Assembly: GCA_028821235.1 (NCBI GenBank)
Contig: JAPPGV010000059.1
Coordinates: 1-52,987 of the forward strand
Source of the DNA: a bacterium
GTDB taxonomy: Bacteria > Actinomycetota > Acidimicrobiia > Spongiisociales > Spongiisociaceae
Reading direction: 5' to 3'
Length of the DNA: 52,987 nucleotides
Below, piece after piece: positions 4,198-52,238 of this stretch; position 1 is the stretch's first letter, and each line of letters opens with the position of its first letter. Made by a program: the position numbers and the translations under genes. The notes beneath the pieces are model-generated. The model did no database searches. It had not been told where the DNA came from and saw only the letters and a list, made by a program, of their open reading frames with translations.

Positions 4198-4636
4198 CGT
4201 CGGTCGCTCCCTCCGATTCGGCTAGCCGCCCGGCTGCTTGCTCCACGGCTTCGAACACTCTAGGAGGCATATATCTCAGGATCAGACCATATGGACCCAT
4301 CTACAGGAGTTATCCACACCTTTCTAGGGCCGACCCTGAGTAGGTAGGGGAGAACCTCCGACTACTCCAGCAGTCGACGCCACTGGGACAGGGTCCGTAT
4401 ACCAAGAGCGACAGGACGAAACCGAGCAGCAGAAGGCGAAGTTGACACCGAAGCGTTGACCAATCAGCGCCGTCCGAGCCATTGGCGGAGATCACAGAAG
4501 ACGACGTCGGCGTCATCTGCTGGATGGCTGTCCTTCCGGCCGCGACCCAGTAAGGGGGCCACGGGACCTTCTCGCTGTGGTGACCTGCGATAGGAACGTT
4601 GATAATTCGTTGGTGACGATCCTGTAGACACGGAAT
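4198..4636. other. Intergenic region between divergent genes
   Basis: This 439-base stretch separates the divergent ISP enzyme and DUF222/HNH genes. It contains AT-richer patches (around 4268-4320 and 4600-4640) that may hold both promoters. A single TTATCCACA at 4310-4318 matches a DnaA box, and a GTATAC at 4397-4402 lacks an extended palindrome. I see no convincing gene or RNA. Confidence 0.5.
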
Positions 4637-39620: not shown

Positions 39621-41969
39621 TCACGCCTCCTGGCCTTTCCGGGCTAATGCTTCGGCCGTGAGGATGTATCTCAGTAGCTTCTCCGGTTGCAGGGGCATCT
39701 CGGTTATGCGCAGGTCGAGGGGGTGGAGGGCGTCCTCGACCGCGTTGGCGATGGCCGCGGGTGCACCCACCGTTCCTCCCTCGCCGCATCCCTTGATCCC
39801 CAGGTCGTTCAGCCCGGAGGGGAACTCCTGGTGGTGAACCTCGATGGGCGGAACGTCGATGGCCCGCGGGAGCCGGTAGTCGACGAAGCTGCCGCTAAGA
39901 AGGTTGCCGGCTTCGTCGTAGACCGCCTCCTCCGACAGCGCGTTGCCGATCCCGTGTACCACGCCTCCCACGATCTGACCCTCCACCACCGCCGGGTTTA
40001 TGATGTTTCCCGCATCGTGAGCTATCACGTAGCGTTCCAACTCGACCTGGCCGGTGTCACGATCCACCTCGAGGGTGACGACGTGGGTTCCGGAGGCCCA
40101 CGTCACGGTCGGCGACGCGAAGGAGTCCATCGCCTCCAAGCACGCTCTCCCACCGGTGCGCTCCCCGTCGCCGGTCGTCTGGGCCAACTCTGCGAGGGTC
40201 GTGATCCGGGCGCCGGCGCCGTCCCGGATGACCCCGCCGATCACGGTCAGTCCGTCCACTTCCACACCGTGGAGGCGGGCGGCCATCTCGATGGCCTTCT
40301 TTCGGAGCTTCCGGGCCGCACCCGCCACCGCCATGCTGCCGGTGACCGCGGTGCGGCTGGCGAACGTGCCTCCTCCCTGCCGGATCAGGGCGGTGTCGCC
40401 GTCCCGTAGGGAGATCGTCTCGATGGCGACGCCTAACGCATCGGCGCACACCTGGGCGAGGGTGGTCTCGTGGCTCTGGCCGTGGTTGTTGGACCCGCTC
40501 AGGATCGTCACCGCCCCTGACCCGTCGACCCTCACGATGGCGCTCTCGGGAGGGCCGAAGCCGGTCCCCTCCATGTGGGCGGATATACCTATCCCGACGT
40601 GGCGGCCCTCGGCCCGCAGGCGGGCCTGGCGGGCGCGGAACTCCTGGTAGCCGATCGCCTCCAGCGCCATCTCGAGCTGGGCGGGAAAGTCGCCGCTGTC
40701 GTACACGGACGGCTTGCCGTCACGGTAGGGCACCCCGGTGTCGAACGGCATGGCATCAGCGGGAATGAGGTTGATCCTCCTCACGTCCGCCGGATCCAGG
40801 TCGAGCCGGCGGGCGACCCTCTCCAGAACCCTCTCGATCACGAAGGCGGCCGTGACCCGCCCCGCTCCCCTGGCCGGGGCGTTGGGAGTCTTGTTGGTGA
40901 TCACGCAGGTCGCCGCGGCCTCGTAGTTGTCGATCCGGTACTGGCTCTTCAGATGGGAGATCGTGTTGTACGGCACCACCAGGCCGTAGAAGTTGGCGAT
41001 GCCCATGTCTACGAGGATCCGGTCGCGGAGGGCGAGGAGGCGGCCCCGGCTGTCGAACCCCACCTCGACATCATGGACCTGGTCTCGGGCGTGGCGGGCG
41101 TTGACCAGGTTCTCCGTCCGGTCTTCGACCCAACGCACCGGGCGGCCTACCCGCCGGGCGAGATACGGGATCAGGATGTCCTCGTAGTAGACGCCCCCGC
41201 CGAAGCTGCCGCCCATGTCCGGGCAGATGACCCGGATGCGGTCCTCGGCCACTCCGAGAATCCCCCCGATCACCTTGCGGGCGAGGTGCTGCATCTGGGT
41301 GGCAGACCAGACGGTCAGGCCCTCCACCGGGTCGAATCGGGCCAGCACCGCCCTGGGTCCCAGGGGGCTCCCGATCTGCCGCCGGATCGTGAACCGGAAC
41401 CCGGCGGTGTGATCGGCGGCTGCCATCGCCCCGTCCGGATCCCCGACCACCACCCCGACCCGGCTCTGCACGTTGTCTCCCAGCTCGTCGTGGATGACCG
41501 GCGCCTCCGGCCGCAAGCCGGCTTCGGAGTCGAGCACCGGTTCCAGCGGTTCGTAGTCGACCCGGATGAGCCGGGCGGCATCCTCGGCCAGGTAGCGGTC
41601 TTCCGCCACAACCAGCGCGACCGGCTCACCGACCCTCCTCACCCGTCCGGCGGCCAGGAGCGGCACGTCGTGGCCTTTCTCGAGCGGCCGGAGCAGGTTG
41701 GCGAATGCGGGCGGTGACTTGTGGTACGGGCGGTAGACGCCGGTATCGGTCAGGTCGTCGGCGGTGATCACCGCGACCACGCCGGGCGCTGCGGCTGCCT
41801 CCGAGATATCGATGTGTTCGATCAGGGCATGGGCGTGGGGGCTGCGCTTGACGACCGCTTCCGCGGCATCGGGGAGCCGGACATCGGGTACGTAGACCCC
41901 CTCGCCTTTGAGGAACCGGCTGTCCTCCCTGCGGAGGACCGGCCTGCCGAAGACGGCGCCGGTCCTCAT
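39621..41969 (-). CDS. Xanthine dehydrogenase/aldehyde oxidase family molybdenum subunit (CoxL-like)
   Basis: The 782-residue protein is a complete large subunit with MRTGAVFGRPVLRREDSRFL, then DMGGSFGGGVYYE near 250, ARGAGRVTAAFV near 370, and a C-terminal GIKGCGEGGTVGAPAA. This is close to the family motifs for the molybdopterin-cytosine-dinucleotide and catalytic Glu. The segment at the active site reads NAPARGAGR, so it is not a form I CO dehydrogenase. It follows its 2Fe-2S and FAD subunits in an overlapping MSL operon (ATGA, 41966-41969). It probably hydroxylates an N-heterocycle or aldehyde. Confidence 0.92.
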   Translation of the reverse strand: MRTGAVFGRPVLRREDSRFLKGEGVYVPDVRLPDAAEAVVKRSPHAHALIEHIDISEAAAAPGVVAVITADDLTDTGVYRPYHKSPPAFANLLRPLEKGHDVPLLAAGRVRRVGEPVALVVAEDRYLAEDAARLIRVDYEPLEPVLDSEAGLRPEAPVIHDELGDNVQSRVGVVVGDPDGAMAAADHTAGFRFTIRRQIGSPLGPRAVLARFDPVEGLTVWSATQMQHLARKVIGGILGVAEDRIRVICPDMGGSFGGGVYYEDILIPYLARRVGRPVRWVEDRTENLVNARHARDQVHDVEVGFDSRGRLLALRDRILVDMGIANFYGLVVPYNTISHLKSQYRIDNYEAAATCVITNKTPNAPARGAGRVTAAFVIERVLERVARRLDLDPADVRRINLIPADAMPFDTGVPYRDGKPSVYDSGDFPAQLEMALEAIGYQEFRARQARLRAEGRHVGIGISAHMEGTGFGPPESAIVRVDGSGAVTILSGSNNHGQSHETTLAQVCADALGVAIETISLRDGDTALIRQGGGTFASRTAVTGSMAVAGAARKLRKKAIEMAARLHGVEVDGLTVIGGVIRDGAGARITTLAELAQTTGDGERTGGRACLEAMDSFASPTVTWASGTHVVTLEVDRDTGQVELERYVIAHDAGNIINPAVVEGQIVGGVVHGIGNALSEEAVYDEAGNLLSGSFVDYRLPRAIDVPPIEVHHQEFPSGLNDLGIKGCGEGGTVGAPAAIANAVEDALHPLDLRITEMPLQPEKLLRYILTAEALARKGQEA

Positions 41970-42463
41970 GGGTCCTCGTGTCCCGAGCCGGAGCGGGCTG
42001 CCTGCATGGCCGCCGCCACCATGCTCTGATACCCGGTACACCGGCACAGGTTGCCGTTGAGGCGGGTCCGGACCTCAACCTCGGATGGTGGAGCGGACGG
42101 GTCCCGGTCCTCCAGCAGCGAGAACAGGTTCACCAGGACACCGGGGGTGCAGAAGCCGCACTGGAGCGCGAAGTTCTCGTGGAAGGCGGCCTGGAGGCCG
42201 GTCATGGTCGGATCGCCGTCCAGCCCTTCCAGCGTGGTGATGGATCGACCCACTGCCTGCACCGCGAGGATCAGGCACGACGTGGACGGCTCCCCGTCCA
42301 GGAGCACGGTGCAGGCACCGCAGATTCCCTCCTCGCACCCGAGGTGGATGCTATGCAGTTCGAGGCGCTCCCTCAACACATCGGCGAGGATCAGGCGGGG
42401 TTCGACCGCCAAGGCGTGCTCGACACCGTTGACGAGCAGCGTCACCTGGACGGTCTCGGTCAC
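41966..42463 (-). CDS. 2Fe-2S subunit of molybdenum hydroxylase (CoxS-like)
   Basis: The 165-residue protein has a plant-type ferredoxin motif (CEEGICGACTV, then C about 20 residues later) and a C-terminal second cluster motif (CGFCTPG and CRCTGY). Together they bind two 2Fe-2S centres that pass electrons from the molybdenum site to FAD. GTG at 42463 overlaps the FAD subunit stop (GTGA), and its stop overlaps the large subunit ATG. It could also serve the orphan large subunit at 19355. Confidence 0.95.
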   Translation of the reverse strand: MTETVQVTLLVNGVEHALAVEPRLILADVLRERLELHSIHLGCEEGICGACTVLLDGEPSTSCLILAVQAVGRSITTLEGLDGDPTMTGLQAAFHENFALQCGFCTPGVLVNLFSLLEDRDPSAPPSEVEVRTRLNGNLCRCTGYQSMVAAAMQAARSGSGHEDP

Positions 42464-43332
42464 GGCCGGCCGCCCTCCGCCCTCGCCAGCGCCGATCGCA
42501 GGGCGCGGGCTACCACCACCGGCGCCACCCGCCGCCGGTACTCCTCGGAACCGTGGATGTCCCCGATCGGAGCGATGTCGTCCTCCACGGCTTGCGCGGC
42601 CGCTTCGATACCGACCGAGGCCTCACTGCCGCTCAGAGCGGCCTCGACCGACGGAGCACGGCACGGCGTGGGGGCGAGTCCGATCAGAGCCACCCGGGCG
42701 CTCTCCACGCGGGGGCCGTCGAGACTGACGGCCGCGGCCGCTCCGGCCATTGCCGGGTCACCGGGGCGAGGCGCCACCTCGGAAAAGGCAGCACCGGTAC
42801 AGGACGGGGGCAGCGAGAGGGTCAACGAAGTGATGATCTCCGAGCCGGCCAGGCTGGTCGAGTAAGGGCCGGTGAACAACCCTTCGACCCCCACCTCCCG
42901 CTCTCCGTCAGGTCCGGCCACCTGGCAGACTCCGTCCAGGACGAGGGCGACCGCGCCCCACTCGGCGGCGGGATCAGCGTGGGCCAGGCTTCCGATCACG
43001 GTGCCGATCGTCCTGACCGAATGGTGGCCGATGTGCGCGGCGGCATCGACGAGGAGATCCTGCCCGTGGTCGGAGGCCCAACGCTCGAGGGCATGGTGCG
43101 TCACCATCGCTCCCAGCCTGAGCCTACGGGCGTCGTCGAGGCAGATGTCGCGCAACCCGTCGATCCGGCGGAGATCTATCAGGGCCTCCGGTTCGAGCAG
43201 GCGGTGGCGGAGCATCGGAATGAGGCTCTGCCCCCCGGCCAGCACGCGGGCCCGGCCCCCGGCGCTATCCAACAGGTCGGTCGCCTCACGGACGGTGGCC
43301 GGCGCGGCGTAGCTGAACCGTGGGGGCTTCAC
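42460..43332 (-). CDS. FAD-binding subunit of molybdenum hydroxylase (CoxM-like)
   Basis: The 290-residue protein has the family FAD-binding motifs AGGQSLIPML near residue 30 and TIGTVIGSLAHADPAAEW near 107 (compare T-I-G-G-N in close relatives), and the C-terminal CO dehydrogenase flavoprotein domain. GTG at 43332 is used because the conserved PPRFSYAAP strand begins immediately after; the frame is open further upstream without similarity. It is the first gene of the operon and diverges from the DoxX-like gene. Confidence 0.88.
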   Translation of the reverse strand: MKPPRFSYAAPATVREATDLLDSAGGRARVLAGGQSLIPMLRHRLLEPEALIDLRRIDGLRDICLDDARRLRLGAMVTHHALERWASDHGQDLLVDAAAHIGHHSVRTIGTVIGSLAHADPAAEWGAVALVLDGVCQVAGPDGEREVGVEGLFTGPYSTSLAGSEIITSLTLSLPPSCTGAAFSEVAPRPGDPAMAGAAAAVSLDGPRVESARVALIGLAPTPCRAPSVEAALSGSEASVGIEAAAQAVEDDIAPIGDIHGSEEYRRRVAPVVVARALRSALARAEGGRP

Positions 43333-43429
43333 GTGTTTAGAGTATCCGATCCGGAGCGCGGCCCGGCCGCCGGGATGGCAAGCAGGACTTCGGTGCGCTC
43401 CGGGCGCCGGGAGAGCGGGAGGAGCAGCG

Positions 43430-43831
43430 GTGGAAGACCTTGCGATGGGGTTGCTGCGAGCCACGATGGGCGCCGTCTTCATGGCCCACGGCTGGCCCAA
43501 GATCTTCAGGAGCGCCGATACGGGGCACGGCCCGCGCCGGACCGAGAACCTCCTGCGGAGCAAGGGCGTTCCCTATCCGGCCGCGGTGGCGCTGCTGGCC
43601 GGATACGTCGAGACGTTGTGCGGGCTCCTGCTGGTCGTCGGTCTGCTGACCCGCGTGGCGGTCATCCCGCTCATCGTGATCCTCATCCTGGCCATACCGA
43701 TGGTCAAGTGGAAGCAGGGCTTCGTGGACGGCTGGGACTGGCCCTTCACGCTCATCATCGTGGGCATGGTCCTGCTCATCCAGGGCCCGGGTGGGATAAG
43801 CATCGACGCTCTGGTCGGCTGGGCCGGCTGA
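43430..43831 (+). CDS. DoxX-family membrane protein
   Basis: The 133-residue protein has four predicted helices and the DoxX family features RATMGAVFMAHGWPKI, then GYVETLCGLLLVVGLLTRVAVI, typical of the family. The function of DoxX proteins is not well settled; some act with thiosulfate oxidation or oxidative stress proteins. GTG at 43430 has GGGAGGAG upstream. It is 66 bases before the M20-like gene and probably cotranscribed with it. Confidence 0.85.
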   Translation: MEDLAMGLLRATMGAVFMAHGWPKIFRSADTGHGPRRTENLLRSKGVPYPAAVALLAGYVETLCGLLLVVGLLTRVAVIPLIVILILAIPMVKWKQGFVDGWDWPFTLIIVGMVLLIQGPGGISIDALVGWAG

Positions 43832-43897
43832 AGACCTGTGCCACCGGACAGAACCCATCACAACCCGAGCATTCCGAGGTAGAAGGAGAACCCGATC

Positions 43898-45166
43898 ATG
43901 AACGAACTGCTCGCCACGCTCCTTCCCTCCTTCACGCCCGAACTCCGGGACGAGATGGTCGGCATGACCTGCGACCTCGTGGACATCCCCAGCCCCACCG
44001 GGGAGGAAGGCCCGATCGCCGACTACGTGGCCCACCGGTTCCGGGAGATCGACGGGATGGACATCGAGCTCCAAGAGGTGGAGCCCGACCGCTACAACGT
44101 GATCGGCCGCCTGAGAGGAAGCGGCCGGGGCCGCAGCCTCCTGCTTGGGGCGCACTTCGACACGGGCATGACCGGGAAGGATCCGGGAATGCCGTTCGGG
44201 CTGCTTCCCAAGGCGACGGTCGAGGAAAGCGGCTGGATCTACGGCCTCGGGGTCTCCAACATGAAGTCGGCCTTCGCGGCCTACTACGGGGCCATCCGGG
44301 CCGTCCAGGAGGCGGACATCGAACTACGGGGCGACATCATCCTGGCCGGTGTGATCGGAGAGACCGAGAAGTCCCCCACCGACGAGTTCGCCGGACCGGC
44401 CTACCGGGCCGGAGGCTGGGGCACCCTGTACGCCGCCCAACACGGCGTGGTGGCGGACGCCGCCATTCTCGGCGAACCCACCGGGCTGAGGGTCCAGACC
44501 GGCAACTCGAGCTACATCTTCGCCAAGGTCACCACCAGGGGCATCTCCCGCCACACCTGGTCCAAGGAGCACGGTGACGACGCCATCGAGAAGGGGGTCC
44601 GGGTGCTGGACGCCCTCCGCGCCTGGGAACCGGAGTTCGCCGCTTCCCACGCTCACCCCACCATGGGAACGAGGATCGGATTCGGGGCGATCCGCGGCGG
44701 GAACCCCTTCCAACCGGCCGTCAACCCGGCCCGCAGTTGCACCCTGTACCTCGACTTCCGCTTCCCCCCTACCGCGACCATCATGGAGATCCACCGACAG
44801 GTGCGGGGTTTCCTGGATGACCTGGCCGAGAAGGATCCCGCCCTGGCCACCGAACTCTCCTTCTTCCTGTGCCGCAACGGGTACGAGATCGGCGATGACG
44901 AGCCCCTGGTGCAGACGGTGGAGCGGGCCCATCGCGCCGTGTTCGGCACCCCCTCCCACAAGGTGGAGCCGTACCGCTACGACGTGTCAGCCGACACTTC
45001 GATCCTCCACGAGTACGGCGTGCCCGCCCTCACCTACGGTCCCGGCGGAATCCGCAAGGACGGCGTCTACGACGTCTACGACCAGTACGGGGAGATCGTC
45101 TCGATAGAGAACCTGGTCGATTGCACCAAGGTCTACGCCCAGTGCATCGCCGAAATCTGCGGCTAG
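43898..45166 (+). CDS. M20 peptidase-like protein with altered metal site
   Basis: The 422-residue protein has M20 architecture: HFDTG (H86, D88), an acidic pair region GVIGETEKS (E155, E157), ILGEPTG (E193) and the dimerisation domain. Two expected features differ. The bridging Asp normally in the ADMKG motif is Asn121 (GLGVSNMKS), and the late metal His expected after GPGG is not evident (GIRKDGVYDVYDQYGE). These may be family-specific variations, or the active site may be altered. The family includes carbamoylases, deacetylases and dipeptidases. A carbamoylase role would fit the hydantoinase-like gene downstream. ATG at 43898 has AGAAGGAG upstream. Confidence 0.8.
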   Translation: MNELLATLLPSFTPELRDEMVGMTCDLVDIPSPTGEEGPIADYVAHRFREIDGMDIELQEVEPDRYNVIGRLRGSGRGRSLLLGAHFDTGMTGKDPGMPFGLLPKATVEESGWIYGLGVSNMKSAFAAYYGAIRAVQEADIELRGDIILAGVIGETEKSPTDEFAGPAYRAGGWGTLYAAQHGVVADAAILGEPTGLRVQTGNSSYIFAKVTTRGISRHTWSKEHGDDAIEKGVRVLDALRAWEPEFAASHAHPTMGTRIGFGAIRGGNPFQPAVNPARSCTLYLDFRFPPTATIMEIHRQVRGFLDDLAEKDPALATELSFFLCRNGYEIGDDEPLVQTVERAHRAVFGTPSHKVEPYRYDVSADTSILHEYGVPALTYGPGGIRKDGVYDVYDQYGEIVSIENLVDCTKVYAQCIAEICG

Positions 45167-45184
45167 CCGGGATGCGCTGACGGC

Positions 45185-45198
45185 TGTATACCGTATAT
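45185..45198. promoter_or_regulatory. Imperfect GTATAC palindrome upstream of alpha/beta hydrolase
   Basis: TGTATACCGTATAT lies about 60 bases before the GTG of the alpha/beta hydrolase. One GTATAC core and a partial second half make it a weaker member of the set. Confidence 0.35.
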
Positions 45199-45256
45199 CC
45201 GATCCCTATACTCGCTCCGTGAGCACCGCGTCGAAGAGGTTCCTTGGAGGTCGGTC

Positions 45257-46183
45257 GTGAGGGTCGAGGAGGTCTCGTTCTACTCGGAGGGTGATCGCGT
45301 TTCGGCGATCCTCCGGCTTCCCGACCGGAGTGCGGACGCTCCTTACCCGGCTGTAGTCCAAGGGCCCGGCTGGCTGGGTCTCAAGGACGCCCAGCTCTAC
45401 CTCCCCTACCACGAAGCCCTCACCGCCGCCGGGATCGCGGTCTTAATCCTCGACTTCCGCGGCTTCGGTTCCTCCGAGGGGGCGAGTGACCTCTTGTTGC
45501 CCTCGCGCCAGCTGGAGGACCTGATCAACGCGGTGACCTACGTCGCGTCGCGATCGGACATCGACGAGGACAGCATCGGCACTTTCGGCAGCGGAGGGAC
45601 CGGCGGGGGCAACGCGATCATGCTGGCTGCGGCGGACTCGCGCATCCGCTGCGCGGTCTCACAGGTGCCGGTGGCTGACGGAGAGGACTGGCTGCGCCGG
45701 ATGCGCCGGGAGTACGAATGGTACGAACTGCTGGAGTCCCTCCGCGCCGACCGGGCCGAGCGGGTCCTGACGGGCAAGAGCCGGCTCGTCCATCCCCGCG
45801 AGGACATCATGCTCCAGACACCGGAGCGGAGGACCACGAAGGTGAAGAAGGACGTGGACTCCCGCGTCCCCACCCTGGTGCAGTTACGGAGCGTGGATGG
45901 GATACTCGCCTACAAGCCGATCGAGGTGGTCGGCAGTATCGAAGACGCTCCGCTCCTGATCGTCGGGGTGGAGAACGACCCGGTGACGCCCACCGACCAC
46001 GCGGTGGCCCTCTACGAGCGCGCCCACCCTCCCAAGAAGCTGCTCATGCAGCGCCACACCACCCATTACGGCGCCTATGCGCAGTACGCGGACACGGTGG
46101 TTCCCCAGATCACCGACTGGTTCGGCACGTACCTGCGCAGGGAACCCGTGACGATGGACCACGACCCGGGAGCGACGACATGA
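45257..46183 (+). CDS. Alpha/beta hydrolase with atypical nucleophile elbow
   Basis: The 308-residue protein has a hydrolase fold, with GPGWLGLKD, LDFRGFGSSEG and the DxxG region, and late DPVTPTDHA and HTTHYG (catalytic His candidates). The elbow reads IGTFGSGGTGGGNA, whereas the usual pattern is GxSxGG; a Ser sits at FGSGG but lacks a Gly two positions before it. Activity is therefore uncertain. GTG at 45257 is preceded by GGAGG. The stop overlaps the next ATG (ATGA, 46180-46183), so it is coupled to the dihydropyrimidinase-like gene. Confidence 0.8.
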   Translation: MRVEEVSFYSEGDRVSAILRLPDRSADAPYPAVVQGPGWLGLKDAQLYLPYHEALTAAGIAVLILDFRGFGSSEGASDLLLPSRQLEDLINAVTYVASRSDIDEDSIGTFGSGGTGGGNAIMLAAADSRIRCAVSQVPVADGEDWLRRMRREYEWYELLESLRADRAERVLTGKSRLVHPREDIMLQTPERRTTKVKKDVDSRVPTLVQLRSVDGILAYKPIEVVGSIEDAPLLIVGVENDPVTPTDHAVALYERAHPPKKLLMQRHTTHYGAYAQYADTVVPQITDWFGTYLRREPVTMDHDPGATT

Positions 46184-47553
46184 CATACGATCTGGCGGTG
46201 GTCGGAGGAACCCTCGTATCCGGCTCGGGCCGGCAGCGGGCGGACATCGGGGTCTCCGGCGGGCGGATCGTCGAGGTAACCACCGGTAACGGAGCCGGCT
46301 TGGAGGCGAAGCAGGTGGTGGACGCCACCGGCAAGCTGGTGCTGCCCGGCATGGTGGACGTCCACGTCCACACCCGCGAGCCCGGCTACACCCACAAGGA
46401 AGACCTGATCACCTGCACCGAGGCCGCTGCCGCCGGCGGGGTGACGACCATCTTCGGGATGCCCAACCTGGATCCCCCCACCGTGACCAGGACCTATCTC
46501 GAGGAGGTCCTCGACCTCTACCGGGCCAGGAGCATCGTGGATTACAACCACAACCCGGTGCCCGCCCACGGCGAGACCGAGGCCATGGCCGCGGCCGGGG
46601 TGGCGGCCTTCAAGGTGTACATGGTGGTGGACACCGGCCGCACCTATCCCCACCCGGCCGGCACGGGGATCCACGACCACGGCCACCTGCTGCAGATGTT
46701 CGAGGACGTGGAGGAGACAGGGCGCGTCTTCATGGTCCATCCGCACGACCAGGCCCTGATGGATCACGTCGAGCAGGGATACTGGAAGAGAGGGGATCGC
46801 AGCCCGGAGGCATACGCCAAGACCCTGGCCGCGTACGACGGCATCATCTGGGACACCGCCACCGCCACCCTGCTGCGGATGGCCAAGGCTACCGGCTGCC
46901 GCCTCCACATCGTCCACGTCCAGACCATCGAGGGGATCGAGATGATCCGCCGGGCCAAGGACGAGGGCGTCCGGGTCACGGGCGAGGTGAACCACTGGGC
47001 ACTGTTCCTCAGCACTTGGGAAGACGTGCTCGAGCTAGGGCCCTACTGCCTGTCCTACTGGGTGCCCGACCACCACCGGGCCGCCATCTGGGACGCGCTG
47101 GATGACGGCACGATCGACATCGTCTCCTCGGATCACGCTCCCCATACCCGGGCGGAGAAGGACGTGGGCTGGGAGGACATGTGGGCCGCCCACACCGGCA
47201 CTCCGGGAATCCAGCACCAGGTGCCCCTGCTGCTCGACGCCGCACACGGGGGAAAGCTCACGCTGGAGCGAGTGGTCGAGCTGACGGCCGAGGCGCCCGC
47301 CCGGTGCTTCGACATCGGTTCAAAGGGGTACCTCCGGCCGGGCTTCGACGCCGACCTGCTGATCGTCGACCCCACCAAGAAGTGGACGATCCGCAACGAG
47401 GACGTGCTGTCCAAGATCGGATGGACCCCCTACGACGGCCGGCAGGTGGTCGGGGCGGTGGAACGCACGTTCCTGAGGGGTGTCGAGATCTACGGTGGCG
47501 GGACGGTCAAGGGGAGGCCAGGGTTCGGGCGCCACGTGAAACCCAGCGATTAG
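46180..47553 (+). CDS. Dihydropyrimidinase/allantoinase/dihydroorotase-like cyclic amidohydrolase
   Basis: The 457-residue protein has all ligands of a binuclear metal site: DVHVHTREPGYTHKE (H62, H64), the carboxylated Lys145 in AAFKVYM, MVHPHD, IVHVQT, and SSDHAPH. This is the ureide/hydantoin ring-opening group (D-hydantoinase, dihydropyrimidinase, allantoinase, dihydroorotase). HxHxREPG slightly favours allantoinase or dihydroorotase. ATG at 46180 overlaps the stop of the upstream hydrolase. With the M20-like protein it could form a ring-opening then carbamoyl-removal pair. Confidence 0.9.
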   Translation: MTYDLAVVGGTLVSGSGRQRADIGVSGGRIVEVTTGNGAGLEAKQVVDATGKLVLPGMVDVHVHTREPGYTHKEDLITCTEAAAAGGVTTIFGMPNLDPPTVTRTYLEEVLDLYRARSIVDYNHNPVPAHGETEAMAAAGVAAFKVYMVVDTGRTYPHPAGTGIHDHGHLLQMFEDVEETGRVFMVHPHDQALMDHVEQGYWKRGDRSPEAYAKTLAAYDGIIWDTATATLLRMAKATGCRLHIVHVQTIEGIEMIRRAKDEGVRVTGEVNHWALFLSTWEDVLELGPYCLSYWVPDHHRAAIWDALDDGTIDIVSSDHAPHTRAEKDVGWEDMWAAHTGTPGIQHQVPLLLDAAHGGKLTLERVVELTAEAPARCFDIGSKGYLRPGFDADLLIVDPTKKWTIRNEDVLSKIGWTPYDGRQVVGAVERTFLRGVEIYGGGTVKGRPGFGRHVKPSD

Positions 47554-47566
47554 AAGAGGAACCGTC

Positions 47567-48559
47567 ATGAAATTCGGCCTGCTCCTGCCTCACTTCGGCA
47601 TGTACGCCAACCGCGAGCGCATCCTGACCGGTTCCCGGCTCGCCGAAGAGTTGGGATTCGACTCCCTCTGGGTCCGGGACCATCTGGTGTTCGAACCACA
47701 CGCAGAACTCGAGAACCCCAACATCGTCTTCTACGAAGCCCTCGTCACCCTCACCGCGGTCGGCGCCGTCACCGACCGCATCACCTTGGGAACCGGATCC
47801 CTCATCCCCTTCCGCCATCCGATCCACACCGCGCTGTCGGTCGGGTCGCTCGCCCAGCTGGTCGGCGATCGGATCATCCTCGGCTACGGAGCCGGCACCT
47901 TCGACCACGAGTTCGAGGCCATCGGGATGCCGGGCATATTCCGTCCCGAACTGGTCGAGTCCAACGCCAACATCCTCAAGCGCCTGTTCGGCGAGGGACG
48001 GGTCGACTACCAGGATGCCCATTACAAGCTGGACGCGATCTCGATCGAGCCGAAACCCCCCGCTCCTATTCCCTTCTGGTATTGCGGATCGACCCCGGCC
48101 TCGGCCCGCAGGGCGGTCCGCTACTGCGACGGCTGGATGCCGGGAAGGACCACCCTGCCCACCATCGCCAAGCGGGTGGAGGCGATGGACAAGATGGCGG
48201 CCGAGGCAGGCCGCTCCCGGCCTACGGTCGCCGTGATCCCCCCGACCTCGATCGCCAAGACCCGCGAGGAGGCGTTCGATGGCCTCAACATCGACGGGCT
48301 TCTACGCTGGGCGAACGAACGCGGCAAGTGGTGGGTGAAGCCTCCCTCGGGTGTCTTCGAGACGGCCAAGGACATCGAAGGCTCCTTGATAGCGGGGTCA
48401 CCCGATGACGTGGTGGAGGAGGTCGTCAAGTTCGCCGCCGTCGAGGTGGAACACCTCGTATTCGACCTCCGGCTCAGGTTCGACCGCTGGTTCGAATCGA
48501 TAGAGCTGCTCGGCTACCGGGTACTCCCGCAGTTGAGGAAGCTGGGCCTGGCGGAGTAA
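47567..48559 (+). CDS. LLM-class flavin-dependent oxidoreductase (F420-type)
   Basis: The 330-residue protein starts MKFGLLLPHFGMYANRE and has GFDSLWVRDHLVF, GTGSLIPFRHPIH, and GDRIILGYGAGTFD, all LLM features. It is closer in its opening to the protein at 30204 than to that at 35757. ATG at 47567 lies 13 bases after the cyclic amidohydrolase stop, with GAAGAGGA upstream, so it is the likely third gene of that coupled unit. An F420 or FMNH2-dependent oxidation next to a ring-opening hydrolase is typical of heterocycle degradation operons. Confidence 0.88.
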   Translation: MKFGLLLPHFGMYANRERILTGSRLAEELGFDSLWVRDHLVFEPHAELENPNIVFYEALVTLTAVGAVTDRITLGTGSLIPFRHPIHTALSVGSLAQLVGDRIILGYGAGTFDHEFEAIGMPGIFRPELVESNANILKRLFGEGRVDYQDAHYKLDAISIEPKPPAPIPFWYCGSTPASARRAVRYCDGWMPGRTTLPTIAKRVEAMDKMAAEAGRSRPTVAVIPPTSIAKTREEAFDGLNIDGLLRWANERGKWWVKPPSGVFETAKDIEGSLIAGSPDDVVEEVVKFAAVEVEHLVFDLRLRFDRWFESIELLGYRVLPQLRKLGLAE

Positions 48560-48635
48560 CCCGAGGCCGATCCGGGTGCTCGTGCGTTGACGGCGCGGCG
48601 TCGTCAGCATTGGAATCAACCGTCTGGACCGGGTC

Positions 48636-49868
48636 ATGGACTCAGATCTGAACATCGCCGAGCCGGACCTTCCTCCGAGCAAGCCGCTAAGCCTGCTCCT
48701 CGGGAGGAACTTCGGTCCCTATTTCCTCGGCAACCTCATGTCGAACATGGGCACCTGGATCCAGAACATCGCCCTCGCGCTCCTGATCTTCCGGCTCACG
48801 GGATCCACCTTCCTGGTCGCGATGACGACCTTCTCCCAGTTCCTGGGCATCATCGTCCTCGCCCCTTGGACCGGGTCGGTCGCCGACCGGTTCGACCGGC
48901 GCGGCCTGATCGTCCTGACGCAGGTACTGGCCACGGCGGCCGGAGGGATGCTGGCGCTGGTCACCTATCTGGACCTGGTGACCCCCGCGTGGCTGCTGGG
49001 TACGGCTCTCGCGTTCAGCATCACCAAGGCCTTCGTGCTCCCGGCACAGCAGGCGCTGGTGCCGCAGTTGGTCGAGCGGAAGGACCTGCAGGCTGCGGTG
49101 GCCCTGAACGCGATCACCTTCAACCTGGCACGAGCCATCGGACCGGTGATAGGCGCGGGGGTCATCCTGACCCTCGGCTTCACCTGGGCGTTCTCGATCA
49201 ACGCCCTCTCCTACCTGTCCCTGGCGGCGGCGGTGATGATCGTCAAGGTCGACCCGCGCAGGCGCCACAGGCCCACGGAGCGCACCACCCTCAGGGAGAC
49301 GATCCGCCTGGTCAGAAAGGACCCCATCATCGGTCCGCTGCTCATCTCCATCGCCGCCGTCTCGGTAGCGGTCGATCCGGTGAGCAACCTGACCCCGGCG
49401 TTCACCGTAGAGATCTACGGGAGGCCCGACACGTTCACCGGCGTGCTCATCGGGGTGTTCGGTCTGGGCGCAGCGCTCACCGCCGCCCTGGTGATCACCC
49501 GGATACGGGCTTCGTTCCGGAGCATCGCGCTGGGGATGACCGGGCTGGGCCTGTCGATCGCAGCATTCGGGATGTCCTCCCACCCGAACATGGGTATCGC
49601 CGCGCTGTTCGCCGGAGGGATCATGTACATCGTCTCGGTCAGCCTGTCGACAACCCTGGTGCAGATCAACACGGCGGAAGGCCACCGAGGCCGGGTCATG
49701 GCCTTGTGGGGCGTGGCCTTCCTGGGACTCCGGCCCGTGGCAAGCCTCATCGACGGTTCCGTGGCCACCCTCGTCAACGTCAGGGTGGCGGCGCTCGTCA
49801 TGGCTGTGCCCGTCCTGATCGGGGCAGCCTCTCTGGCCAGGCGCAACAGGCGCTCGGGACAGCCGTAA
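48636..49868 (+). CDS. MFS transporter (DHA3/EntS-like)
   Basis: The 410-residue protein has about 12 hydrophobic helices. MFS motif A is recognisable as GSVADRFDRRGLI near residue 80, and the family-specific NLMSNMGTWIQNIALALL helix near 33 is typical of the EntS-like DHA3 group of exporters. It may export a product or toxic intermediate of the pathway. It follows the LLM gene with a 76-base gap. ATG at 48636 was chosen; no strong ribosome binding site is seen. Confidence 0.87.
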   Translation: MDSDLNIAEPDLPPSKPLSLLLGRNFGPYFLGNLMSNMGTWIQNIALALLIFRLTGSTFLVAMTTFSQFLGIIVLAPWTGSVADRFDRRGLIVLTQVLATAAGGMLALVTYLDLVTPAWLLGTALAFSITKAFVLPAQQALVPQLVERKDLQAAVALNAITFNLARAIGPVIGAGVILTLGFTWAFSINALSYLSLAAAVMIVKVDPRRRHRPTERTTLRETIRLVRKDPIIGPLLISIAAVSVAVDPVSNLTPAFTVEIYGRPDTFTGVLIGVFGLGAALTAALVITRIRASFRSIALGMTGLGLSIAAFGMSSHPNMGIAALFAGGIMYIVSVSLSTTLVQINTAEGHRGRVMALWGVAFLGLRPVASLIDGSVATLVNVRVAALVMAVPVLIGAASLARRNRRSGQP

Positions 49869-50045: not shown

Positions 50046-51377
50046 ATGATCTGTAGTTTCTGCGGAACCCGGGCGGAAGACGCCGGAAACCTGGTCATGG
50101 GCGAGGCCGGCGCCGCCATCTGTGATGCCTGCGTGGACCTCGCGGTGGACCTCGTGCGGGAGCAGGCCACGCCGATCGGCAACATGGTGCTGGACAACAT
50201 CGGCACGCTGGCTACCAACGATCGGCGTTTCCCCGGCTTGCTGGGTCTCGTAACGGATGCGGCCGTGGCGATCCGCAACGGCCTGGTGGTCTGGGCCGGG
50301 CCCTCGGAACGAACACCCCAGGGACTCCGGTCTCTTCCCAGCCTGGACTGCGGGGGTCGGGCGGTGCTTCCGGGACTGGTGGACGCCCACACCCATCTGG
50401 CATTCGCGGGCGACCGGAGCGAGGAGTTCGTGCTCAGAAGCACCGGCGCGCCTGATGCCCGCTCGGTTGCCCGCTCCGGCAGCGCCACGACAGCCCGCCT
50501 CAACCACCTAGCGGATGCTTCCCGGATCGCCGACGTGATCGGCCGGCGTCTGAACCGCATGCTCGACTTCGGCGTCACCACGGTCGAAGCGTCCGCCGGG
50601 TATTCGAACGACTACGAGCGGGAGCTGGCTCTCATCGACACGGTGGTCGAAACGGGCGGGCGTTATATGGTTGATCTGGTGCCCACGTTCGACGTATCGG
50701 GTTTGCCGGTCACCGCATCCGACCGTTCGAGGACTCTGGATGAGGTGGCCGAGCTACACCTTCCCGTGGCGGCCAGGCTGGGAGCCGCGGTGCGGTTGTC
50801 ACTCGGAAGCGACGCTCTGACGACCGGGGAAGCACGCCGACTCATCGGGGTTGCCACAAGCCTCGGGGCGCGGACGCGGATACACCATCGCGGCCGGGCC
50901 CCGGACGTCTACAGGCTGGCGCTGGAAGCCTCGGTCCCGGTGGTAGACCACGCCGGGTATCCCGACCGGGACCAGGCCGAACAGATGGCCGAAAGGGGCG
51001 TCAGCGTGGTGATCACCCCCACCGCGATGCTTGGGACCCGCCGCTCCCCCACCTCGCTTCGCAAGCTGATGGAGAAAGGCGTCCCGTTGGGACTGGGAAC
51101 CGACTGCAGCCCGGCGCCGGTCATGGTGGAGTCGCTACCCCTCGCCATCACCCTGGCCGTGACCGAGATGGGGCTGACCTCCGACCAGGCCATCTGGGCA
51201 GCGACACTGGGCAGCGCTCGGGCGCTGGGCCTGGGCGACCGGGGCTGGCTGGGCCACGGCGCGGTGGCCGATCTCGTCGTTCTCGACGCTCCCAGCCCCA
51301 CCCACCTTCCCTACCGACCGGGCACCAACCTGGTCTGGAAGGTACTCAAGGCAGGCGAGGTGGTGGTCAGCAGGTAA
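50046..51377 (+). CDS. ClpX-type C4 zinc finger fused to imidazolonepropionase-like amidohydrolase
   Basis: The 443-residue product opens with a C4 zinc finger (C3, C6, C26, C29: CSFCG, then ICDACVDLAVDLV) of the type found at the N-terminus of ClpX, followed directly by an HutI-like amidohydrolase. The latter has NMVLDNIGTLATND, GRAVLPGLVDAHTHLAFAGD (H115, H117), RIHHRG (a metal His) and GLGTDCSP (the late Asp). It departs from true HutI at VEAKSGYG (here VEASAGYS) and the IHADQ region, so the substrate is probably not imidazolonepropionate. No other hut gene is nearby. ATG at 50046 starts just before the first Cys; the frame is open from 50022 without stops through the junction, so the fusion is real in the sequence. 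Confidence 0.87.
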   Translation: MICSFCGTRAEDAGNLVMGEAGAAICDACVDLAVDLVREQATPIGNMVLDNIGTLATNDRRFPGLLGLVTDAAVAIRNGLVVWAGPSERTPQGLRSLPSLDCGGRAVLPGLVDAHTHLAFAGDRSEEFVLRSTGAPDARSVARSGSATTARLNHLADASRIADVIGRRLNRMLDFGVTTVEASAGYSNDYERELALIDTVVETGGRYMVDLVPTFDVSGLPVTASDRSRTLDEVAELHLPVAARLGAAVRLSLGSDALTTGEARRLIGVATSLGARTRIHHRGRAPDVYRLALEASVPVVDHAGYPDRDQAEQMAERGVSVVITPTAMLGTRRSPTSLRKLMEKGVPLGLGTDCSPAPVMVESLPLAITLAVTEMGLTSDQAIWAATLGSARALGLGDRGWLGHGAVADLVVLDAPSPTHLPYRPGTNLVWKVLKAGEVVVSR

Positions 51378-51419: not shown

Positions 51420-52238
51420 ATGTCCCTTCCCTTCGCGCTCGGGCATGAGCACCCTATCGCCATGGCGCACCGCGGATCCGGGTTGCTGTGGCCCGAGAAC
51501 ACGATGGTCGCCTTCCAGGGCGCGGTGGATCTCGGCTACAGATACCTGGAGACCGACCTCCAGATCACCAGGGACGGCATGCTGGTCACCATCCACGACA
51601 ACACGGTCGACCGCACCACCGACGGCACGGGCCTCGTGTCCGACCACTCCCTGGAGGAGCTCCGGACCCTCGACGCGGGCTATCGATTCGAGCGCGACGG
51701 CGACCACCCCCATCGAGGACAGGGAGTCCAGGTGCCGACGCTCGAAGAGCTGGCCATCACCTATCCGGACGGCGTATTCACCCTCGACCTGAAGAGCGAC
51801 GGCATGGAGGCGGCCCTGGTGGAACTCATCCGCCGTCTCGACCTGTGGGATCGGGTGATCGTCGGCTCGTTCAGCGGGTCCCGCCTACGCCGCTTCCGGT
51901 CGCTCGTCGACCGCCCGGTGGCAACCTCGGCCGGCCCCGCCGAGATTGTCCGGTTCGTGACCGCGGCGAGGACCCACCTACCGTACCGGCCCCGGGCCGA
52001 CTCCTTCCAGGTGCCCGTCAAGGATCGTGGGATCACCATCGTCACCCCCAGGACGGTCCGAGCCGCGAGGAGGCTGGGGGTTCCGTTAATAGTATGGACC
52101 ATCAACCGTCGGGCCGAGATGGAGGAACTGCTGGACCTGGGAGTCGACGGTCTCATCACCGACCGTCCGGACTTGCTACGGACCCTCCTGGCCGAGCGGC
52201 CCGGCAACAGGAATCGGAAGGAACCACGTGATGGGTGA
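51420..52238 (+). CDS. Glycerophosphodiester phosphodiesterase (GDPD-like)
   Basis: The 272-residue protein has the GDPD signature AHRGSGLLWPENT, then LETDLQITRDG, IHDNTVDRTT and late VWTINR, forming a TIM barrel with a metal-bound His-Glu-Asp site. It hydrolyses deacylated phospholipids to glycerol-3-phosphate and an alcohol. No signal peptide is seen, so it is likely cytoplasmic. The next gene starts inside its last codons (8-base overlap). Confidence 0.9.
   Translation: MSLPFALGHEHPIAMAHRGSGLLWPENTMVAFQGAVDLGYRYLETDLQITRDGMLVTIHDNTVDRTTDGTGLVSDHSLEELRTLDAGYRFERDGDHPHRGQGVQVPTLEELAITYPDGVFTLDLKSDGMEAALVELIRRLDLWDRVIVGSFSGSRLRRFRSLVDRPVATSAGPAEIVRFVTAARTHLPYRPRADSFQVPVKDRGITIVTPRTVRAARRLGVPLIVWTINRRAEMEELLDLGVDGLITDRPDLLRTLLAERPGNRNRKEPRDG

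Follow-up and report, generated by a model that had tools for sequence, protein, structure and literature searches.

A ClpX-type zinc finger on imidazolonepropionase-like proteins of one order of Acidimicrobiia, and its possible role apart from histidine catabolism

A zinc finger of the ClpX type in front of an amidohydrolase raises the question of whether the two belong to one genuine protein and, if they do, what keeps them together. The question arose from a contig of an Acidimicrobiia genome (JAPPGV010000059.1, assembly GCA_028821235.1), whose whole stretch of 52,987 nucleotides is here called the window. Proteins of this arrangement are referred to below as ZF-HutI, after the imidazolonepropionase HutI that their larger part resembles.

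The fused protein and its distribution

An earlier note on this DNA had read Cys 3, 6, 26 and 29 as a ClpX-like C4 finger and had placed it in one open frame with a HutI-like barrel, and both readings were borne out. In a Pfam search, zf-C4_ClpX (PF06689) matched residues 3-39 with 42.9 bits (E 4.6e-11), the gathering score of this family being 27 bits, and the frame of 443 amino acids carries the HutI fold (2bb0). The remainder of the protein was assigned to Amidohydro_1/_3, with only amidohydrolase matches and no AAA+ domain after residue 44. The nearest named family was NCBIfam hutI (TIGR01224) at 210 bits, which is below the equivalog cut-off of 298.15 bits, and the best solved relatives by sequence were HutI of B. 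subtilis and Agrobacterium. An AlphaFold2 model reached a mean pLDDT of 87.8 and a pTM of 0.85, and its closest solved fold was HutI 2bb0 (TM 0.81/0.87); the finger was modelled at moderate confidence (pLDDT 74-81 for residues 1-30) in what is a monomer model without metal. The features are collected in Table 1.

Table 1. Features of the ZF-HutI locus, in positions of the window.
Feature	Position	Strand	Remarks
ZF-HutI-like protein, 443 aa	50046..51377	+	ATG at 50046, stop 51375-51377; conserved across genus and family
ClpX-type C4 zinc finger, residues 3-39	50052..50162	+	PF06689 match; Cys invariant in 38 sequences
Finger Cys codons C3, C6, C26, C29	50052-50054, 50061-50063, 50121-50123, 50130-50132	+	spacing C-x2-C-x19-C-x2-C
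Linker, probably flexible, residues 36-43	50151..50174	+	AlphaFold2 pLDDT <50
Urease-like beta-sandwich (composite) domain, N-terminal half, residues 44-112	50175..50381	+	
HutI TIM barrel, residues 113-385	50382..51200	+	
Kept metal/catalytic residues H115, H117	50388-50390, 50394-50396	+	
Kept metal/catalytic residues H280, H302, D353	50883-50885, 50949-50951, 51102-51104	+	
C-terminal segment completing the beta-sandwich, residues 386-443	51201..51374	+	metal-less relatives keep the segment too
GDPD gene (glycerophosphodiester phosphodiesterase), neighbour	51420..52238	+	Pfam; synteny with hut locus of sister families

The earlier note had asked for the junction to be checked for a frameshift or stop. 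By comparison of genomes the junction was found intact, since the whole fused protein was present in eight other genomes of the genus at 86-93% identity and in three genomes of the family at 55% identity. An artefact at the junction is thereby excluded, and as 40 genomes from four families carry the fusion unbroken, both a sequencing frameshift and an assembly join are ruled out. The joined arrangement was sought with a profile of the finger and the first sandwich half. Of the 395 genomes sampled from the class, 40 contain it, and every one belongs to a single order of Acidimicrobiia, where they are spread over the families f1 (that of the window), f3, f4 and f6. The same profile found no fusion outside the order in a phylum sample of 396 genomes, and no match in three genomes of the window's own family (G009, G012 and G014). 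The sampled genomes are mostly metagenome assemblies, so gene absences can be gaps. No report of ZF-HutI, or of another fusion of zf-C4_ClpX to a metabolic enzyme, was found in open-access papers. The earlier note knew of no standard protein with this pair, but the pair characterises a family found across the order, canonical HutI enzymes among its members, and the notion of a fusion confined to the window's genome is rejected.

The four cysteines of the finger, F5 and G19 are invariant in all 38 ZF-HutI sequences, in which the spacing is always C-x2-C-x19-C-x2-C and position 36 is Leu, Val or Ile in most. This conservation of the cysteines (38/38) and the Pfam score rule out a HutI of the ordinary kind with a chance CxxC. 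The ClpX-type finger of the window genome itself, found in a 423-aa frame on contig C14, has an x18 spacer and a Tyr ahead of the second Cys pair, a position taken by Ala, Gly or Ser in ZF-HutI. As judged from sequence, the ZF-HutI finger is a subtype distinct from that of ClpX. The ClpX finger dimerises and offers a docking site for adaptors (PMC7804408, PMC9035409), with SspB, RssB and trigger factor docking via a hydrophobic patch that includes F16 and I46 (PMC7804408). The equivalent of F16 (F5) is kept in ZF-HutI, and the remaining positions of the patch are kept only in kind. Elsewhere in the order, two ClpX-type C4 fingers lie close together on the minus strand of L125 (G243:C174, about 4458-4626 of the reverse complement), one of them preceding a segment that by eye resembles a Clp N-domain; this is a further non-ClpX use of the finger in the order.

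Graded loss of the active site and the hut locus

Residues are numbered after B. subtilis HutI, from an alignment with the solved relatives. We take H80, H82, H249, H272 and D324 to be the metal/catalytic residues of HutI, and Y102, K149, H185, E/Q252 and the NPG motif to be its substrate residues. In the canonical finger-bearing HutI of f4 and of three f3 genomes, R89, Y102, KSGYG, H185, HAxQ, H272, D324 and NPG were all present, and these f3/f4 forms scored 408-427 bits to TIGR01224, above the cut-off. All members from f1 and from genus g9 of f6 have kept the five metal/catalytic residues, while Y102, H185, E/Q252 and NPG are changed in both and K149 is changed also in f1. In the window's genus Y102 has become Asp, Glu or Gly, K149 Ser, H185 a residue other than His, E/Q252 Gly and NPG SPA, and the equivalents of N326 and G328 are changed in the window protein. 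The changes in HutI signatures reported in the earlier note could thus be confirmed (KSGYG to SAGYS and HAD(E/Q) to HHRG), and the changed substrate site that it proposed is supported by the altered substrate-residue positions. Family f1 also has conserved replacements of its own, e.g. AGY and TDCxPxPV. The window protein is therefore unlikely to act on imidazolonepropionate, but its metal site is intact and might yet support hydrolysis of some small amide.

The loss goes further in ten f3 and f6 proteins (L115-L121, L123, L124 and L126), in which the barrel is shortened and the metal residues are lost partly or wholly. In these metal-less proteins H-x-H is replaced by A-H, S-R, G-E, T-R, Y-Q, F-Q or H-T; L117 has retained H-x-H and lost H272 and D324. 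Five of the ten were run against Pfam, which recognised the finger in every one; the amidohydrolase segment at the C-terminus was recognised in most.

The gene neighbourhood of the f1, f3 and f4 forms points to an old hut locus. The canonical f3/f4 ZF-HutI gene follows hutU directly or after one opposite-strand gene and has GDPD downstream, with hutH nearby in several genomes, and the finger-less HutI of f5 and f8 stands in the same gene order. (Neighbours outside the window were named from their translations, except hutU, for which TIGR01228 was used.) In the window's family hutU is missing from the ZF-HutI locus, and the window gene has neither hutU nor hutH nearby, yet GDPD is still adjacent in most members. 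The metal-less f3 forms likewise retain GDPD, often with an HU gene in between, which makes this neighbour common to f1, f3 and f4; the f6 genes adjoin rpoC instead. The retention of GDPD, in f1 without hutU and also in the metal-less f3 forms, suggests that the altered ZF-HutI of these families descended in place where the hut genes once stood. Upstream of the gene the neighbourhood varies: catabolic genes lie at 39621-49868 of the window (molybdopterin and 2Fe-2S subunits of the xanthine-dehydrogenase type, an M20 peptidase, another amidohydrolase, a luciferase-like oxidoreductase and an MFS transporter), and the relatives L106 and L107 of the same genus carry aminotransferase-like, alanine-dehydrogenase-like and FAD oxidoreductase-like genes in this place.

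When hutU and hutI were searched in 46 genomes, canonical ZF-HutI was the sole HutI, with hutU adjacent, in 7 of 7 genomes. Among the 31 genomes with an altered or dead ZF-HutI, a separate HutI scoring above the cut-off was present in 22. A further two (G032 and G130) had hutU with a second HutI that was partial or missing; in G130 a contig end is reached 246 bases from hutU and may have cut off the second HutI gene. The other seven (G010, G011, G023, G158, G190, G268 and G282) had neither hutU nor another HutI and had kept ZF-HutI. The window genome has two hut clusters elsewhere, each with its own HutI, and wherever the window's family has a hut cluster it is served by a finger-less HutI. 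In a quick tree the second HutI copies of f1 and most of f3 fell in a clade on the Aquiluna side, those of f6 in one on the Agrobacterium side, and those of G043 and G243 on an order-like branch. The copies thus derive from at least two different HutI branches, probably three, so the displacement occurred more than once.

The finger-less HutI of f1 and most of f3 (L002, L003 and L173-L184) has Asn in place of the catalytic metal-binding Asp in 14 of 14 sequences, reading SNCNPG or TNCNPG as opposed to TDxNPG; nearly all 14 otherwise retain the signature motifs. Genes of this clade mostly adjoin hutU. L002 and L003 lie on contigs C81 and C128 of G000 (L111 and L112), which hold two near-parallel hut clusters of hutU, a HutF-like gene and hutI, with hutH beside the C128 cluster. 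These twin clusters represent either a duplication or a mixture of strains (5% estimated contamination); other genomes of the window's genus have one hutU each.

In a tree of the barrel only, the finger-bearing rows required two changes, and their joining in a single clade was not rejected (AU p 0.318). One fusion event is favoured on sequence grounds, since the 19-residue spacer is common to all ZF-HutI. Barrel trees placed f1, f6 and f3/f4 unstably and with long branches, which leaves the order of the losses unsure; the metal-less forms are in none of the trees. One ZF-HutI gene (L018:1480-1520, the same record as L045) begins with a tandem duplication of 17 bases, as a result of which its ATG and the finger are in different frames; upstream of the finger only CTG codons are found in the finger's frame, and the duplication is either a real change or an assembly error.

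Selection and competing explanations

By our own Nei-Gojobori counts, which rest on short segments and on pairs made non-independent by shared ancestry, dN/dS was 0.14 in the window's genus, 0.11 in f6 and 0.067 in canonical f4. Two metal-less groups gave 0.085 and 0.12, the latter from one pair only, in which dS is saturated. The finger was the lowest or near-lowest segment in every group, at 0.090 in the window's genus, 0.058 in f6, 0.050 in canonical f4 and 0.019 and 0.075 in the metal-less groups. The barrel stood at 0.17 in the window's genus versus 0.06 in f4, and at 0.11 in f6; that of the window's genus is relaxed yet constrained. In the metal-less groups the finger and both beta-sandwich segments are under strong purifying selection.

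The explanation we regard as probable is that ZF-HutI was repeatedly freed from histidine catabolism and retained for a finger-linked, non-catalytic role, with the window protein as an intermediate. ZF-HutI has a full canonical active site and stands beside hutU in those genomes in which it is the sole HutI. In genomes with another HutI or with no hut pathway, the substrate residues are lost, as in the window protein, and some other genera have lost the metal residues too. A finger on a short flexible linker could have provided a second role, either in dimerisation, as in ClpX, or in the binding of a partner, and this role would be the reason why ZF-HutI survives after the Hut job moved elsewhere. 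The window protein, with its metal site intact and its substrate site gone, would stand in between.

For the window protein itself, the observed constraint could stem from a new hydrolase activity and not from the finger, because all five metal/catalytic residues remain. The f1 metal site would then act on a new cyclic amide or a similar compound, the finger only holding a dimer or stabilising the protein. The presence of these residues in all f1 and f6 g9 members, a barrel that is still under purifying selection at 0.17 and 0.11, and the conserved replacements peculiar to f1 agree with such neofunctionalisation. A purely catalytic account does not cover the metal-less relatives, whose finger and sandwich are equally or more constrained, and we consider it unlikely, though to be taken seriously. 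A link to ClpXP, in which the finger pairs with or mimics the zinc domain of ClpX so that ZF-HutI brings cargo, competes for adaptors or is itself routed, appears more doubtful still. The docking of SspB, RssB and trigger factor around F16 and I46 of ClpX (PMC7804408) and the invariance of the F16 equivalent in ZF-HutI speak for it, but the ZF-HutI finger is one residue longer, lacks both the Tyr of ClpX and the Cys of the ClpX finger helix and has lost some hydrophobic positions in metal-less members such as L123, and no clp gene was recognised near ZF-HutI at the loci examined. The least probable alternative, and one that we disfavour, is a decaying relic on its way out after replacement of the hut pathway, its loss pending. 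The shortened barrel and lost metal residues in several genera and the three genomes of the window's family without a match would be expected of such a gene, but in the genera examined frames are intact and dN/dS is 0.085-0.14, and the four cysteines are unchanged in all sequences.

Retention of ZF-HutI for a finger-linked role after its release from histidine catabolism may be extended to a wider proposal, which we offer tentatively and hold to be rather less probable. A metabolic enzyme equipped with a ClpX-type docking finger would have turned into a non-catalytic regulatory pseudoenzyme more than once in this order, the Hut job passing to an incoming HutI while the scaffold took on a part in protein quality control or with some other partner; the window protein would be part-way along. 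The living proteins form a graded series, from the full enzyme with a finger, through the finger and metal site without the substrate site, to the finger without the metal site, and this series makes the transition from enzyme to pseudoenzyme directly testable. The ClpX zinc finger is, moreover, a movable module outside ClpX, whose function is open to study in the absence of the motor. Names transferred by similarity, such as 'imidazolonepropionase' or 'amidohydrolase', would be given to many ZF-HutI and are probably incorrect in most cases.

Relation to known systems

With HutI (TIGR01224; B. subtilis 2bb0/2g3f, A. tumefaciens 2puz/2gok) the window protein shares the fold after residue 44 and the metal/catalytic residues, and the f3/f4 ZF forms share all signatures and the hut operon context as well. 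The window protein differs from HutI in its extra N-terminal finger, the absence of the substrate-binding residues, a score below the cut-off and a place outside the hut operon. With the ClpX zinc-binding domain (PF06689; 1ovx, 2ds5) the finger has in common the CSFC start, the Gly before the second pair, ICDxC and a hydrophobic helix, but it lacks the AAA+ motor, its spacer is 19 and not 18 residues, and the Tyr before ICDEC is replaced by Ala, Gly or Ser. A further parallel is the pseudo-dihydroorotase of Pseudomonas ATCase, an inactive dihydroorotase homologue of the amidohydrolase superfamily that is needed as a structural partner (PMC7053772). In both cases a chain of this superfamily would be kept without catalysis; ZF-HutI differs in belonging to another subfamily and in carrying a finger, whereas for the pseudo-dihydroorotase the partner enzyme is known.
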